From contig JAFGGP010000041.1 in assembly GCA_016930485.1 (NCBI GenBank), forward strand, positions 68,005-114,383: a stretch of 46,379 nt of DNA. Reading direction: 5' to 3'. Source of the stretch: Candidatus Omnitrophota bacterium (lineage in GTDB: Bacteria; Omnitrophota; Gorgyraeia; JAFGGP01). Position numbers and translations under genes: made by a program. Below, piece after piece: positions 1 through 8,150 of this stretch. Under the pieces are notes generated by a model. That model did not search any database and was not told the DNA's origin. It worked only from the letters and a program-made list of their open reading frames with translations. Each line of letters begins with the position of its first letter. The stretch's first letter is position 1.

Positions 1-344
1 AAAGGGGTGAAATCCGAGAGTAAAAAAATGCAACCAAATATGTAGCCAGACCTTACTAATTTCCGTTGCTTCCTGTGCTGTCCAAGCAGTGCCAAAATAT
101 GGTGCAAATAAAAGATAGGGATAAAAATAGCGCCTGCCATCAGCCCTCGTGTACAAAAAAGTGCCGTATCGGCATTATCGGCGATTTGCCATGCATAATA
201 AAAAAAACTCCATACAGCTATGCTGAAACAGAAAAGAACATAAATAACGTACTGTGCCCTCTTTCTGTTTTTTATAAAAACAAAAATGCCCATAACGGTA
301 CTCGTTATACCATTGACGAGGGCACTAAAAGCATAGAAGTTCAT
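1..344 (-). CDS. Partial membrane protein resembling the N-terminal 7TM region of sensor histidine kinases; runs off the window start
   Basis: Own reverse-strand translation from ATG at 344: MNFYAFSALVNGITSTVMGIFVFIKNRKRAQYVIYVLFCFSIAVWSFFYYAWQIADNADTALFCTRG...; open to base 1; absent from the ORF track. Confidence 0.6.
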   Translation of the reverse strand, partial: MNFYAFSALVNGITSTVMGIFVFIKNRKRAQYVIYVLFCFSIAVWSFFYYAWQIADNADTALFCTRGLMAGAIFIPIFYLHHILALLGQHRKQRKLVRSGYIFGCIFLLSDFTP

Positions 345-355
345 AAGGCGGGATC

Positions 356-2494
356 CTAACGTTTTTTTGAGGCGACTGCCACATTAACCTGATTGCCCAA
401 TGATCTAAAAATTTTTACCTTTTCCCCTCCTGCAATAACAAGAAGCATTTTGAGCTCTTTTTCGGTATAAAAGTGATAGTGTCCTGCGTTACCCTTTTGT
501 TTAATTTTACCAGCGTTGCTCAATAACTTTCGTGCTTCTATAATTTCAGTTTCTGTATTAGCAGCAGATACAAAGTTTCTGTATATCTGCGAAAGATCGG
601 CAAAAGGTTTTAGAGAGCTTACGACTATAGTACCCCCACGCTTTAAGACCCTCATTAACTCCTGCATGGTTACCATCGGATTATCGAGATAAGAGATAAG
701 CAGGCTGCAACAGATTTTGTCAAAATAACTATCCTCGAATGGAAGATCGTTGTTTAAATCATAATTTTCATAAAAGCAGGGGAAGAAACTTTTGATTTTA
801 TGGGGGGCCTTTCTCTTTGTTAAAAACCGTATTTTCATATCTTCATGATCTTTCTGTGCTGCCTTTAATGCGGCATCAACAAAATCGACCCCGTAATAGC
901 GGGAATGTGAATGCGTATTGGGAAATGCTGTCAAGTTTTTGTGTTCCAGCTCTGTGAATACAGTGTTCAGCAGCCAGGCACCAAAGTAACCCACTCCACA
1001 ACCGGCATCCAGGATATACGATCCATCTTTAGGTTTTTCAAGCAACTCGGTTAAAAGGTTTAGATAGGAACGGTAATCCGGAGATTTATTAATAATAGTG
1101 AAACTGGTCAGATATTCGCTCCAAAATTCCTTTTCTTGTTTGATGGTAACTATCTCTGATAATCTTGCCCTTTCTTTCTCTATCCGGTTTTGCAGGGCAA
1201 TCTCCCTTAGATTTGGTTCCACCACATCTTCATGCTTCATCTTCTTCCTTAAGAGATAGTTTGCGCTGCTGCACACCACCTGTTTTTGTGCTGTTCGAGC
1301 AGCCTTGGGATTTTCGAATACCTGATGTAAGGCTCCCGCTATGACATGAAGTTCCTTTTTTTGGGTTTTAACTTTTTCAATAACGAGTTTCACGTCTTCT
1401 AACTTGACCCAAACGTCATTTTCTGCTACTAAAAAGACTATCGGGATACGAAGATTTTTTACATCATCGAGGGTGGTTGTTAAATTATGAAAATTGTCAC
1501 TAATAGCAGTTTCAAGAAAGTTGCCGCTTACCTCAAAACCCAATACATCTGTTACAGGCCACCTTTTCCCCGCGAGCGTGGTGCCGATCATGTCTTCTCT
1601 ATATACAGCTGCTAATGTGTGTTGCAAATCGACCACCCCTACAATACCAAGGAGAAAATGTATTTTTTGATTTTCTTTAGCAGCCTTTATAGCGACACGC
1701 TTTGCTAAACTGCTTGCTACCATTCCAATGTGCTTGGGCCCAAAAGTTTTTTTGACATAATCAATAGTTGCCAGTATATCTTCTTTCATTTTGCGCATGG
1801 TTGCATTAACCATGTCGCCTTCGCTTTCACCAACATGGTCGGTGGCATCATACCGTATGACATTAAATCCGTTTTTGGCAAGATAGTAGGCCGTCGAGAG
1901 GGCATCGCGTTTTGTCTCCCCGTATCCTGGCGGCATTATAATAAAAGGGTTTTTAAGGGCGGTCCCTTTCATGTGATCGAAGTATCCGACAATCTTCTGT
2001 TTATATTTGTTGCGATATATTATAGGCTCGCTGATTATCGCATTTCTTTTCTCGACCGAGGAGCCCTTGATTAACCGGCGTCGTATAGAACGAAGCATGC
2101 TCCTAAGCACGGCTTCTGTTTTTCTGGCAATAAACAACTCGGTATAAGGAAGAAAAATATGTTTTCCCCATTCCAAAGTAACCGCAAGTTTTATAATACT
2201 TCCTTTCCCGTCGCCGAGCACCTCCCACATTCCTTCATATCGGTCAAAATCGCCGGCAAGGGCCTTAAAACATATTTTGTGATTTTTGTCGTCACACTGA
2301 CTTTGTTGCCGCCATTTGATTAATGTGCCGTTTACGTTGATCTCCCAGTCAGCAATGATGTCAGCTTTCGATTTTTGTACCGTACGTATACTCTCGACAC
2401 CGAGCATAAAAGTAGGGTATTGTTCGAATTTCTTAAGAAGTTTATACACCGAGGTCTTCGGAGTCTCGAGGAAGATAGAGGTTTTTATAAACAT
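356..2494 (-). CDS. Trifunctional fusion: SRPBCC/polyketide-cyclase-like domain + LuxD-like acyltransferase (alpha/beta hydrolase) + SAM methyltransferase
   Basis: N-terminal FEQYPTFMLGVESIRTV...; middle GFNVIRYDATDHVGESEGDM...GMVASSLAKRVA...GIVGVVDLQHTL...NDVWVKLED; C-terminal YILDAGCGVGYFGAWL and DLPFEDSYFDKICCSL. Confidence 0.75.
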   Translation of the reverse strand: MFIKTSIFLETPKTSVYKLLKKFEQYPTFMLGVESIRTVQKSKADIIADWEINVNGTLIKWRQQSQCDDKNHKICFKALAGDFDRYEGMWEVLGDGKGSIIKLAVTLEWGKHIFLPYTELFIARKTEAVLRSMLRSIRRRLIKGSSVEKRNAIISEPIIYRNKYKQKIVGYFDHMKGTALKNPFIIMPPGYGETKRDALSTAYYLAKNGFNVIRYDATDHVGESEGDMVNATMRKMKEDILATIDYVKKTFGPKHIGMVASSLAKRVAIKAAKENQKIHFLLGIVGVVDLQHTLAAVYREDMIGTTLAGKRWPVTDVLGFEVSGNFLETAISDNFHNLTTTLDDVKNLRIPIVFLVAENDVWVKLEDVKLVIEKVKTQKKELHVIAGALHQVFENPKAARTAQKQVVCSSANYLLRKKMKHEDVVEPNLREIALQNRIEKERARLSEIVTIKQEKEFWSEYLTSFTIINKSPDYRSYLNLLTELLEKPKDGSYILDAGCGVGYFGAWLLNTVFTELEHKNLTAFPNTHSHSRYYGVDFVDAALKAAQKDHEDMKIRFLTKRKAPHKIKSFFPCFYENYDLNNDLPFEDSYFDKICCSLLISYLDNPMVTMQELMRVLKRGGTIVVSSLKPFADLSQIYRNFVSAANTETEIIEARKLLSNAGKIKQKGNAGHYHFYTEKELKMLLVIAGGEKVKIFRSLGNQVNVAVASKKR

Positions 2495-2619: not shown

Positions 2620-2820
2620 CTATTTCCGATAGCTGCCTTCCGAAAAATCTTTATACTGGCTTTCCAACCATTTATCGATATCTCTCTTTTGAAACCGCCA
2701 ATGCCTGCCAACCTTCGCCCCCGGGATATCCCCGTTTTGGGCAAGATAATAAAGCGTGGCCTTGGGTATCTTAAGATACTCGTGGAGCTCAGTGATAGTT
2801 AGAATCTCGTCTGTCTGCAT
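2620..2820 (-). CDS. Excisionase/MerR-like helix-turn-helix DNA-binding protein
   Basis: ILTITELHEYLKIPKATLYYLAQNGDIPGAKVGRHWRFQKRDIDKWLES is the HTH_17 (excisionase family) pattern. Confidence 0.85.
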   Translation of the reverse strand: MQTDEILTITELHEYLKIPKATLYYLAQNGDIPGAKVGRHWRFQKRDIDKWLESQYKDFSEGSYRK

Positions 2821-2994: not shown

Positions 2995-3168
2995 TTATAT
3001 TTTATGATGTTGTTCGCTATCGTAGCACAGATCGCACAGGTAGAGTTCAGGATCCATATCTTGTATGGTAACACCCTCCTGGTAAAGCGCCTTTGCGCCG
3101 TGTCGTTCCAGCCACAGCCGGGAAAGCCAAAGTGTATCTGTTTCTGCGCCGCATCGTTGACACTTCAT
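2995..3168 (-). CDS. 57-aa CxxC...CxxC zinc-ribbon-like mini-protein
   Basis: Own translation: MKCQRCGAETDTLWLSRLWLERHGAKALYQEGVTIQDMDPELYLCDLCYDSEQHHKI*; start overlaps the upstream stop as ATGA (3165-3168). Confidence 0.6.
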   Translation of the reverse strand: MKCQRCGAETDTLWLSRLWLERHGAKALYQEGVTIQDMDPELYLCDLCYDSEQHHKI

Positions 3169-3605
3169 GAAGCCCCCTTCTCTTTTTTGTGCCTAGCGAT
3201 AGCAACGCCACCGCCTGATGGGGGCTGAGATTGATTGCGCGTGGAGCGTTGATTTACCGCATAGAGAAGAGCAGAAATCCGTGCGGCCAACTTGGTACTT
3301 TGCTCGGATAACAGGGTTAGGTTGGGGGGAGAGGTTCCTTCAATGAGCTCACAAGTCTTTATAATAGTGATAGTTTTGTATAATGCTTCGCGCGCACGCG
3401 AAAGACGCTCAGAAAATTCATGTGATGAATACGCCCCTTTTCCCTGGGCAACATAGAGCGGCACCTCAAGGCTAGCTTTCCTGAGTTCATCAATATAAAA
3501 AGGGGTCGTTACCCGCTTTAAACTCAGTGTATAGTCAAATACCTCCTTGGTATACGCCAGGGCCTCGGTCCAGACATTGAGCTTCTCAAGTACTGAAAGA
3601 GTCAT
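3165..3605 (-). CDS. Four-helix-bundle protein (23S rRNA intervening-sequence protein family)
   Basis: EKLNVWTEALAYTKEVFDYT...RKASLEVPLYVAQGKGAYSSHEFSERLSRAREALYKTITIIKTCELI fits the S23/four-helix family. Confidence 0.75.
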   Translation of the reverse strand: MTLSVLEKLNVWTEALAYTKEVFDYTLSLKRVTTPFYIDELRKASLEVPLYVAQGKGAYSSHEFSERLSRAREALYKTITIIKTCELIEGTSPPNLTLLSEQSTKLAARISALLYAVNQRSTRNQSQPPSGGGVAIARHKKEKGAS

Positions 3606-4460: not shown

Positions 4461-5102
4461 CTAGCAGTGAGCAGTATCCTCCTCTTCGCCATAGGCCTTG
4501 ACCAGATTTCTGCCCGCCGCCTTAGCCTGATAGAGCGCCCGATCGGCTTCATTAATTAATCTGCTCTCCGTATAGGTAGAATCCATGCCCCCACCATACG
4601 AAGAAATGCCGATAGAGATCGTGACCCACATTTTTTTCTGCGGATCCAGGAATGTTACTTCTACGGCCCGGCGGAGCCGCTCCGCCAAAACATGCGCACC
4701 CTTCTGATCCGTTTCAGGCAAGAGGACCGCAAACTCTTCTCCCCCATACCGTGCAGCAATATCGACCTTACGCGTCCCGGTCTTTATGATCCATCCAATT
4801 TTACGTAGGAGGTCGTCGCCTTTCTGGTGACCAAAGGTATCGTTGAAATCCTTAAAATGATCGATATCGATCATCAGAAAGCCCAGCGGATGCCCGTATC
4901 GTTTGCTCCTCTCCATTTCCTCGGAGATTCTCATATGAAAATACCGGCGATTGTAGAGCTCTGTCAGGCCGTCGGTAATCGCCTCCATATAGAGTTGATC
5001 GATGATTGTCTGAGAAGTCTGGCGGTATCGAAGGAGATAGAGAAGGATAAAGAAAAGGGATAAAATGACAAATATATCTAATCCGATTAAAAATGATATC
5101 AT
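4461..5102 (-). CDS. GGDEF-domain diguanylate cyclase
   Basis: DGLTELYNRRYF..., IDIDHFKDFNDTFGHQKGDDLL, RYGGEEFAVLLPETD; N-terminal TM segment. Confidence 0.92.
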   Translation of the reverse strand: MISFLIGLDIFVILSLFFILLYLLRYRQTSQTIIDQLYMEAITDGLTELYNRRYFHMRISEEMERSKRYGHPLGFLMIDIDHFKDFNDTFGHQKGDDLLRKIGWIIKTGTRKVDIAARYGGEEFAVLLPETDQKGAHVLAERLRRAVEVTFLDPQKKMWVTISIGISSYGGGMDSTYTESRLINEADRALYQAKAAGRNLVKAYGEEEDTAHC

Positions 5103-5134: not shown

Positions 5135-6079
5135 TTAACCTGCCGTCACCTCGTGTAAAAGAGAATCGATATCTTTCAGGCTCTCTATAGTATATACAGT
5201 CAGGGCCGGGTCAATCTTGCGCAGGAGACCCTTCAGGACGCGTCCGGGGCCGATTTCGATAAAGGTGTCTACCCCCCGGCTTTTCATCTGAAGTACGGAA
5301 TCCATCCATCTGACCGGAACCTTCATTTGCTGTGCGAGATTATCTCTGATTTTTCCCGGATCCACTGTATAGGCAGCATCGACATTGCTGATGACTGGAA
5401 TCCTCGGCCGGCAAAATGCTTCTTTTCGTAACACCTCCGCGAAACGACTGCTTGCTTCATCCATCAGGGATGTATGAAAGGCTCCCGAGACCTTCAGCCG
5501 TATGACGCGGCGGGCCCCTTCGCGAAGACAACGTTCCTCTGCCTGTGCGACTGAGGCGGGCTCACCGGAAATAACTGTCTGGTGCGGTGTATTCAGATTG
5601 GCAACAAAACACCCTGCCTCACCGCAAATAGCCTGTATCTTTTCAAGATTCAGACCTATCACCGAACTCATCGTCCCGGCCCTTCCCTGCGCCGCTTCAT
5701 CCATGAATTCGGCACGCTTCCTGATGCAGTATACGCCCTGATCAACACTTAACGCCCCCGCAGCAACTAAAGCAGCCATCTCGCCGACACTGAGACCGCA
5801 TGAGACGACCGGCTCAAAAAGTGTATTCTTCTCTTCAAAGATCTTAAGGAGTGCGATACTCATCAAAAAAATAGCCGGCTGCGTATTAATCGTCTTGGTC
5901 AATTCGTCTTCCGGTCCTTCAAATAAAATGCTGAGAAACTCCTCCCCATAGAGCCTTGACGTCTTATCAAAAATCTCTTTTCCGAGACTGGACTCATCAT
6001 AAATCTCCCTGCCCATACCTACAAATTGCGTTCCTTGACCGGGAAATAAATAGGCGGCTTTTCTCATTATCTGCTCCAC
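5135..6079 (-). CDS. fabD: Malonyl-CoA:ACP transacylase
   Basis: LFPGQGTQFVGMG, CGLSVGEMAALVAAGAL, VSGAFHTSLM. Confidence 0.95.
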   Translation of the reverse strand: MEQIMRKAAYLFPGQGTQFVGMGREIYDESSLGKEIFDKTSRLYGEEFLSILFEGPEDELTKTINTQPAIFLMSIALLKIFEEKNTLFEPVVSCGLSVGEMAALVAAGALSVDQGVYCIRKRAEFMDEAAQGRAGTMSSVIGLNLEKIQAICGEAGCFVANLNTPHQTVISGEPASVAQAEERCLREGARRVIRLKVSGAFHTSLMDEASSRFAEVLRKEAFCRPRIPVISNVDAAYTVDPGKIRDNLAQQMKVPVRWMDSVLQMKSRGVDTFIEIGPGRVLKGLLRKIDPALTVYTIESLKDIDSLLHEVTAG

Positions 6080-7074
6080 TCAAGCACCATCGAGCTCCAC
6101 ACCAAGCCGCTACCGAACGCGACCAACAGCACTCTGTCCCCTTTCCGAATGCGGCCTTTCTTGACCGCCTCCGTCAGGGCGACAACCGTTGAGGCGCTCG
6201 ACATATTGCCATACTTATTCACATTCATATACACCTTTTTTAAATCGATGCCCAGTCGTGAGGCAGTGGCATTGATAATGCGGTAATTTGCCTGGTGGGG
6301 AATGACACAATCGATATCCCGACATTCTATTCCTGCTAATGCAACCGCCTTATTCCCGGCCTCGGCCATCATCTTGACCGCCAGCTTGAATACCTCGTTT
6401 CCGCGCATCTTAATATAGTGTAACCGTTCGTCGACGGTCAGGTGGGAGGCAGGCATTCGAGACCCTCCCGCCGGTATCTCAAGGAGATCCTTCCAGGTGC
6501 CGTCCGATGCCATATAACTCGAAAGGATGCCCCCCGTGCGCACCTTCCCTACAACACAGGCACCCGCCCCGTCTCCGAATAAAACACAGGTATTTCTGTC
6601 GGTCCAGTCGACAACCTTGGAAAGGACCTCAGCGGCCACCACCAGTACCCTCTGGTAGGTGCCGGCCAGTACATAGTGATAGGCGGTATTCAGTGCAAAA
6701 ATAAAACCGCAACACGCCGCGGCTATATCAAAGGCCGCCGCACCCTTTGCCCGTAATTTCTGCTGTATAATGCAGGCGGTTGAGGGAAAAAACATATCTT
6801 GGGTAGTGGTGGCAACGATGATTAAATCGATCTCCCGTGCGGTAATGCCGGCATCGCGTAATGCCTTTTTTGCGGCCCGGTACCCAAGGAGGCTGGTGGA
6901 AACATCCGGTTCGGCGATCCTGCGTTGTTTAATGCCTGTCCTGGTGGTAATCCATTCGTTGGATGTATCAACCATTTTTTCAAGGTCGCTGTTCCTTAAG
7001 ATCTTCGGTGGCACATAATATCCCATGCCAAGAATTCCCACCTTCGATCCCTGTGTTAAGCTGCGTCTCGCCAA
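6067..7074 (-). CDS. fabH: Beta-ketoacyl-ACP synthase III
   Basis: SNEWITTRTGIKQRRIAEPD, FDIAAACCGFIFAL, CVIPHQANYRIINA, KYGNMSSAS. Confidence 0.95.
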   Translation of the reverse strand: MARRSLTQGSKVGILGMGYYVPPKILRNSDLEKMVDTSNEWITTRTGIKQRRIAEPDVSTSLLGYRAAKKALRDAGITAREIDLIIVATTTQDMFFPSTACIIQQKLRAKGAAAFDIAAACCGFIFALNTAYHYVLAGTYQRVLVVAAEVLSKVVDWTDRNTCVLFGDGAGACVVGKVRTGGILSSYMASDGTWKDLLEIPAGGSRMPASHLTVDERLHYIKMRGNEVFKLAVKMMAEAGNKAVALAGIECRDIDCVIPHQANYRIINATASRLGIDLKKVYMNVNKYGNMSSASTVVALTEAVKKGRIRKGDRVLLVAFGSGLVWSSMVLEWSR

Positions 7075-7123
7075 TGGTGTTTTCCTCCTCTAGGACCACG
7101 TTTCACACATAGTATACACCCAA

Positions 7124-7160
7124 AACCTATCTCATAAATAGTTTCGTTATGAGATAGGTT
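7124..7160. repeat. Perfect 14 bp inverted repeat between plsX and fabH
   Basis: AACCTATCTCATAA - 9 nt - TTATGAGATAGGTT. Confidence 0.7.
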
Positions 7161-8150
7161 CTAATGCCTGTGTAAGGCCTCAAGAATATGCGTATTCACT
7201 CCCCTGTTAATAAAATATCCGGCAAGCCGTATCGCATTTTTAATAGCCTTGCCAGACGAGGAGCCGTGACAGATAATACATGTTCCGTCAATACCTAAAA
7301 GAGGCGCCCCGCCATACTCCGCATAATCCATCTTTTCCCTTAATGCGCGAAAGGCTGAAAAACTTAAGAGTGCCCCAAGCCTGTTCAGAAGCCCCTTAGA
7401 CAACTCTGTCTTTAAAAATAGCCCCATTGTCTCTGCAAGGCTCTCTGAGACCTTAAGTGCGACATTCCCCGCGAAACCATCACATACGATAACCTCGCAC
7501 TCGCCGCGAAAAAGGTCATGTCCTTCCACATTGCCTACAAACTTAACCGCCGCGTCCTCCAGCAGCTTGTATGTCTCTTTAATAAAATCGGTCCCCTTAG
7601 CGTCCTCCTCCCCCACATTCAACAGACCTACCTTAGGATTCTCGCATCCCAATATGTAGCGATAAAATGCGTCCCCCATGATACCGTACTGACAGAGATG
7701 AGATGGCTTTGCATCGATATTTGCCCCCGCATCGATTAAAAGTGTCATGCCCTTCAGGGTCGGAAAAAGAACCCCGATACCTGCGCGCTCAATACCGGGC
7801 AAAAGCCGCAGGTATAGCGTCGCCGCACAGACGAACGCGCCGGTATTGCCTGCGCTCACTACGGCCTCAACCTTCTTCTCTTGTGCAAGCCTCACCGCCA
7901 CGTTGATAGAGGCGTTTCGTTTCTTTCGTATACTCAAGGCCGGGGATTCATTCATCCCTATCGACTCCGGGGCATGGTAAACAGAGATCGTCTTCGGAAC
8001 CCCCTTGTGCCGGGAAAGATGTTCTTCTAAACTATCCTGAGCCCCTACAAGCACGATCTCGTAGGGTAATTCATGCGCCGCCGCAATTGCCCCCTCGACC
8101 ACCACGGCAGGGGCATGATCGCCCCCCATGGCATCAACCGCTATCTTCAT
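7161..8150 (-). CDS. plsX: Phosphate acyltransferase PlsX
   Basis: MKIAVDAMGGDHAPAVVVEGA..., VSAGNTGAFV, CDGFAGNVALKVSES. Confidence 0.95.
   Translation of the reverse strand: MKIAVDAMGGDHAPAVVVEGAIAAAHELPYEIVLVGAQDSLEEHLSRHKGVPKTISVYHAPESIGMNESPALSIRKKRNASINVAVRLAQEKKVEAVVSAGNTGAFVCAATLYLRLLPGIERAGIGVLFPTLKGMTLLIDAGANIDAKPSHLCQYGIMGDAFYRYILGCENPKVGLLNVGEEDAKGTDFIKETYKLLEDAAVKFVGNVEGHDLFRGECEVIVCDGFAGNVALKVSESLAETMGLFLKTELSKGLLNRLGALLSFSAFRALREKMDYAEYGGAPLLGIDGTCIICHGSSSGKAIKNAIRLAGYFINRGVNTHILEALHRH

Follow-up and report, generated by a model that had tools for sequence, protein, structure and literature searches.

LuxD (PF02273; PDB: 1tht) acts in lux operons as a myristoyl-ACP thioesterase/acyltransferase. 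In the Rpf/DSF system of Xanthomonas, RpfF, an acyl-ACP thioesterase/dehydratase supplied by FAS (PMC4542539), is accompanied by the sensor kinase RpfC and the REC-HD-GYP regulator RpfG. The phcBSRQ operon of Ralstonia has a methyltransferase-kinase-regulator-regulator layout (PMC8578825) and encodes the methyltransferase PhcB, the kinase PhcS, and the regulators PhcR and PhcQ. The acyl-ACP reductase AAR (TIGR04058) and the N-terminal reductase of PigE also handle acyl thioesters.

The window analysed here, a 46,379-nucleotide stretch of an Omnitrophota genome, encodes a fusion protein that has the family and Ser-Asp-His triad of LuxD, as well as the same non-GxSxG serine motif (ASSLxx) and D-x-W motif. 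Unlike LuxD, it is joined to an SRPBCC domain and a methyltransferase, and its gene lies in an operon with sensor kinases. The fusion scores 121 bits against the NCBIfam LuxD equivalog NF052253, which has a cut-off of 420, and neither LuxC (PF05893) nor luciferase (PF00296) has a match in the 89%-complete source genome. The fusion is therefore a member of the LuxD family (PF02273) and not the LuxD of a lux system; a lux bioluminescence reading was dropped because the latter two families are missing. It is improbable that the enzyme belongs to a route to fatty aldehydes, alcohols or hydrocarbons, with the LuxD domain supplying a fatty-acid reductase, as it does in bioluminescent lux systems, and an unrelated role for the methyltransferase. 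The LuxD homology agrees with such a route, as does a second Omnitrophota genome (G174), in which the fusion comes after an acyl-ACP-reductase-like gene, but the source genome, at its 89% completeness, yielded no AAR in addition to lacking LuxC and a luciferase-family gene.

The locus resembles Phc in that a SAM methyltransferase gene is followed by a kinase and receiver-domain regulators, and in having a fatty-acid-derived product, which for the fusion is proposed. It differs from Phc in the acyl-releasing domain on the methyltransferase, the 7TM-GAF kinase, and the HD-GYP output; the likeness is one of layout and does not demonstrate orthology to PhcB. The Rpf/DSF system is alike in its acyl-ACP thioesterase product of FAS, as proposed for the fusion, its sensor kinase, and its REC-HD-GYP regulator, whereas RpfF has a crotonase fold and not that of LuxD, Rpf is without a methyltransferase, and RpfC is a hybrid kinase with another type of sensor. 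Searches of Pfam and NCBIfam gave no crotonase match for the fusion protein. In layout, the locus appears to work like Phc and Rpf and is filed as neither, in the case of Rpf because RpfF has a different fold. The AAR-like domain of Omnitrophota is partnered by the same SRPBCC domain and, like the fusion, has a kinase gene as its neighbour, whereas AAR and the PigE reductase reduce their substrates instead of hydrolysing them.

Domains of the fusion protein

The fusion gene is present in one copy in its genome. Its open reading frame has an ATG start, an AAAGGA ribosome-binding-like sequence a few nucleotides 5', and no internal stop (Table 1). The first-pass annotation had read SRPBCC, LuxD-type, and class I SAM methyltransferase domains in one protein, which is confirmed by the reading frame and by the Pfam and PDB matches.

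Table 1. Features of the fusion locus. Positions refer to the window unless preceded by a locus name.
Feature	Position	Strand	Basis or remark
HK1 5' end, HisKA_7TM-GAF-HisKA-HATPase sensor kinase	1..344	-	runs beyond the window, L002 10160-12349
Fusion of SRPBCC, LuxD-type acyltransferase/thioesterase, and class I SAM methyltransferase, whole gene	356..2494	-	712 aa; ORF and translation, Pfam/NCBIfam/PDB
Domain 3, class I SAM methyltransferase, residues 476-712	359..1069	-	Methyltransf_11/23, SAM motif LDAGCGxGxFG
Domain 2, LuxD, residues 178-436	1187..1963	-	PF02273, 1tht alignment, tree
Catalytic triad	Ser262 1709-1711, Asp360 1415-1417, His390 1325-1327	-	aligned with 1tht and luxCDE LuxD
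Domain 1, SRPBCC, residues 1-146	2057..2494	-	PF03364, COQ10/RatA-like lipid-binding fold
66-aa excisionase/MerR-like helix-turn-helix ORF, directly 5' of the fusion	2620..2820	-	translation; putative operon member
Four-helix 23S rRNA intervening-sequence-type protein, stand-alone gene	3165-3605	-	PF05635
GGDEF diguanylate cyclase, 3' of fabD and 5' of the fusion	4461..5102	-	PF00990, 163 bits
fabD, fabH, plsX, the FASII genes 5' of the insertion	5135..8150	-	TIGR00128, TIGR00747, TIGR00182 above cut-off
REC-HD-GYP regulator	L002 6954-7964		Response_reg and HD_5

The SRPBCC domain matches the Pfam family PF03364 (Polyketide_cyc) over residues 12-108 with 45 bits, and the best PDB match of the N-terminus is the SRPBCC structure 2d4r (E 2e-15). 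Compared with the SRPBCC part of SRPBCC-AAR proteins from Omnitrophota, the domain scores 92-95 bits. In a tree of SRPBCC domains, it is located on a long branch and is unplaced, the bootstrap having run without convergence.

The middle domain matches PF02273 (Acyl_transf_2, LuxD) in Pfam over residues 180-436 with 126 bits, relative to a cut-off of 20.3, and its best PDB match is Vibrio LuxD (1tht, 4e-27). Ser262, Asp360, and His390 are invariant across the four homologues, which are all the LuxD-methyltransferase fusions found. A tree, in which LuxD has a long branch, places the domain with authentic luxCDE LuxD and apart from general alpha/beta hydrolases (support 99/99); the reference LuxD was taken from a plasmid record of E. 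coli K-12, and the general hydrolases are those that also scored. The LuxD identity had been put forward by the same annotation, which named a grouping with ordinary dienelactone hydrolases or loss of the triad as evidence against it. Because the domain groups with LuxD and keeps the triad, neither applies.

Methyltransf_11/23 matches lie within residues 476-686 (Pfam, 47 bits), and the SAM motif is invariant across the four homologues. The PDB matches of this domain are weak class I methyltransferases, with LahSB as the best profile match (3.5e-9), and all its matches in Pfam, NCBIfam, and PDB are to generic families, compatible with O-, N- or C-methylation. AlphaFold2 prediction based on the four-sequence alignment of the fusions reached a mean pLDDT of 48 and a pTM of 0.37, values too low to support a fold search.

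Gene neighbourhood and related fusions

In reading order, the 5' side of the locus consists of plsX-fabH-fabD, the GGDEF gene, a cupin-HTH gene on the opposite strand, the gene of the 23S rRNA intervening-sequence-type protein, the small helix-turn-helix ORF, and the fusion gene. On the 3' side, the fusion gene is separated by 11 bp from HK1, and HK1 by 4 bp from HK2, which overlaps the REC-HD-GYP gene; fabG, acpP, fabF, and an acyl-CoA dehydrogenase gene follow. The signalling genes sit between plsX-fabH-fabD and fabG-acpP-fabF, on opposite sides of the inserted block, and thus split the usual FASII order. HK1 and HK2 have the same HisKA_7TM-GAF-HisKA-HATPase organization, with PF16927 scores of 49 and 44 bits, respectively (cut-off 28.6), and belong to HisKA_7TM by their 7TM N-terminal domain combined with HisKA and HATPase_c.

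No polyketide or PUFA synthase, for which the first-pass annotation had suggested a neighbourhood survey, is present nearby, and the acyl source would be ordinary FASII. The suggested purpose of acyl release and methylation of a lipid-like molecule fits all the data, but it left out the kinase and HD-GYP setting. The gene, located between the halves of the FASII cluster, is linked to 7TM kinases and an HD-GYP output, so a purpose in signalling has the better support.

The third 7TM kinase of the source genome (L124 8855-11044, contig C50) has a gene for a methyltransferase of a separate family, here called PhcB-like, directly 5', and the stretch read around this pair is without FAS genes.

A scan of genome contigs with the fusion protein alone as the query found no relatives. 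A profile built from a two-row alignment and applied to 85,462 species genomes identified three full-length LuxD-methyltransferase proteins with 41-45% identity, two from Omnitrophota, including G174, and one from a contig filed as Nitrospira japonica. As the LuxD-methyltransferase fusion recurs in three other contigs, it is not an assembly accident. The N-terminal SRPBCC domain is fused to it in the source genome only and is absent from the other three proteins. In G174, the SRPBCC domain is carried by the upstream neighbour, where it is joined to an acyl-ACP-reductase-like domain, and the LuxD-methyltransferase fusion comes next. All four loci have a HisKA_7TM kinase directly 3' of the LuxD-methyltransferase gene, and FAS or KS genes nearby. 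The kinase is followed by a plain receiver regulator in G174 and L049, and by a second kinase and a REC-HD-GYP protein in the source genome and L048.

The contig labelled Nitrospira japonica (L048, DYHX01000078.1) has a GC content of 41%, and two further contigs of its assembly have 43-45%. The GC content of Nitrospira is usually higher, and the taxon label or binning of this assembly may be wrong.

The position of the gene within a FASII cluster would also suit a housekeeping enzyme that trims or recycles acyl-ACP and has kinases as chance neighbours. This is the least probable of the explanations considered, and very unlikely: PF02273 is rare, occurring in 2 of 386 genomes of the phylum, yet the kinase linkage is present in all four carriers of the gene and extends phylum-wide for SRPBCC-AAR genes.

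SRPBCC-AAR loci and 7TM kinases across the Omnitrophota

Across the phylum, the SRPBCC domain is usually joined to an acyl-ACP-reductase-like enzyme. The SRPBCC-AAR profile matches 111 of the 386 genomes; in the source genome, it matches the SRPBCC part of the fusion alone. Flanks were taken for 44 SRPBCC-AAR loci, of which 39 were testable, and 36 of these have the start of a 7TM kinase gene no more than 6 kb 3' on the same strand, in 20 cases within 100 bp. Such a kinase is present at 29 of 30 loci in one retrieved subset of them. Since genomes contain just one to six PF16927 kinases each, chance adjacency is very unlikely. A test of 18 genomes gave 18 adjacent pairs relative to 0.09 expected (P ~5e-43), a value that ignores shared ancestry, as do the adjacency P values in general, the loci being related by descent and not independent trials. 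Most of the 18 genomes were chosen after their kinases had been seen; therefore, we do not rely on this figure and consider 29 of 30 the fairer one.

The recurrent module (L087-L121, L035-L043) consists of PlsC, an SRPBCC/acyl-ACP-reductase fusion, a variable tailoring enzyme, a 7TM kinase, and REC, often together with genes for a PhcB-like methyltransferase, a second kinase, and HD-GYP. A literature search returned no account of this module. Three to four tandem 7TM kinases are located 3' of a single SRPBCC-AAR gene in L110 (10022-15517) and L114 (10344-17075). A class III aminotransferase gene is directly 3' of SRPBCC-AAR in L108 (10253-12552) and L111 (7209-8579), with a formyltransferase in addition in L108; the arrangement recalls PigE, in which a reductase and an aminotransferase are joined. 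ALDH-like and FabK/nitronate-monooxygenase-like proteins, recognized by eye, are encoded 5' of a second 7TM kinase in L087 (1339-4019) and L090 (1883-5358), and in L090 a methyltransferase is apparently fused to the FabK/nitronate-monooxygenase-like protein.

The composition of the clusters brings in the main competing explanation, which we consider possible but doubtful: a specialised pathway for an unusual membrane or envelope lipid, derived from an ester, aldehyde or amine. In this pathway, the LuxD-methyltransferase would be a tailoring enzyme instead of a signal synthase, and the kinases would respond to the state of lipids or of the membrane and adjust FASII flux, in the manner of DesK-type systems. 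A PlsC-type acyltransferase gene is located directly 5' of most SRPBCC-AAR genes, which fits glycerolipid synthesis and is the main reason for caution about a signal; the kinases could sense membrane state instead of a released molecule. The lipid pathway is also favoured by KS, ACP, FabZ, and FabG in many of the clusters, and by the variety of tailoring genes between enzyme and kinase (GMC oxidoreductase, SDR, class III aminotransferase, formyltransferase, radical SAM, or LuxD-methyltransferase). However, up to four tandem kinases 3' of one reductase (L114) would be unexpected for it, three methyltransferase-kinase pairs (L124, L126, L130) have no lipid genes in the stretch read, and it would be surprising if the sensor clades of regulators of a single lipid pathway tracked the type of the adjoining enzyme.

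Such tracking was observed in a tree built from the N-termini of 65 kinases, each labelled by the gene directly upstream. The labels are clustered, with 21 changes relative to a mean of 37.5 in shuffled data and no value as low in 200 shuffles. All 12 methyltransferase-linked kinases, four with LuxD-methyltransferase and eight with PhcB-like genes, are in one 20-row clade with support of 99/98 (naive P 3e-8), in which the four LuxD-linked kinases would fall by chance with P ~0.001; kinship among kinases inflates these statistics. Reductase-linked kinases are mostly in other sensor clades. The grouping of sensors by enzyme is the strongest hint of a molecule common to kinase and enzyme.

The name PhcB-like is our own label, and the family has no NCBIfam name. 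A Paraburkholderia relative with 27% identity is in an operon of the phcBSRQ layout. The methyltransferase of the fusion has the general class I fold alone in common with this family. PhcB-like methyltransferases in L042 (14066-15430), L091 (1478-2830), and L105 (16860-17999) have N-termini that by eye look like PilZ, which suggests c-di-GMP control of the methyltransferase in the same clusters.

Proposed function as an acyl-signal synthase

We give roughly even odds (about 50%) to the reading that the fusion is a synthase that detaches an acyl chain from ACP before methylating it, yielding a lipid signal read by a cognate kinase. The SRPBCC domain would cradle the acyl chain, and the LuxD-type serine hydrolase would remove it from acyl-ACP supplied by the FASII enzymes encoded around it, a substrate suggested by LuxD biochemistry and the FASII setting. 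The methyltransferase would then methylate the freed product, in the simplest outcome to a fatty acid methyl ester, which the 7TM histidine kinase encoded downstream would sense, and the second kinase and REC-HD-GYP protein would relay the signal to c-di-GMP. Such a scheme would work like PhcB-PhcS, with its methyl 3-hydroxy fatty acid and kinase, and like RpfF-RpfC-RpfG, from different enzyme parts. From the genes we infer the acyl-ACP substrate, the methyl ester product, its binding by the kinase, and its export or diffusion.

More tentatively, and at clearly less than even odds, the Omnitrophota may possess phylum-wide, chemically diversified fatty-acyl signalling, in which SRPBCC-partnered enzymes that off-load acyl-ACP are paired with co-diversified 7TM sensor kinases. 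The off-loading enzymes would then comprise the reductase, the LuxD-methyltransferase, and others with oxidase, aminotransferase or formyltransferase tailoring, and the fusion gene would be the variant with SRPBCC on the LuxD-methyltransferase and not on the reductase.

The Omnitrophota had not been isolated and were poorly understood (PMC10066038), and our literature search found no report of an AAR-kinase pairing or of cell-cell signalling in the phylum. The synthase-kinase pairs are open to cloning and testing in a laboratory strain, with no need to grow the organism itself, and because sensor domains group with enzyme types, the product that each kinase should read can be predicted. If the proposal is true, LuxD combined with a methyltransferase would be a new enzymatic path to a lipid signal, the fusion would be one recognizable member of a broad family of such pairs, and the Omnitrophota would use a variant of bacterial chemical signalling not seen before.
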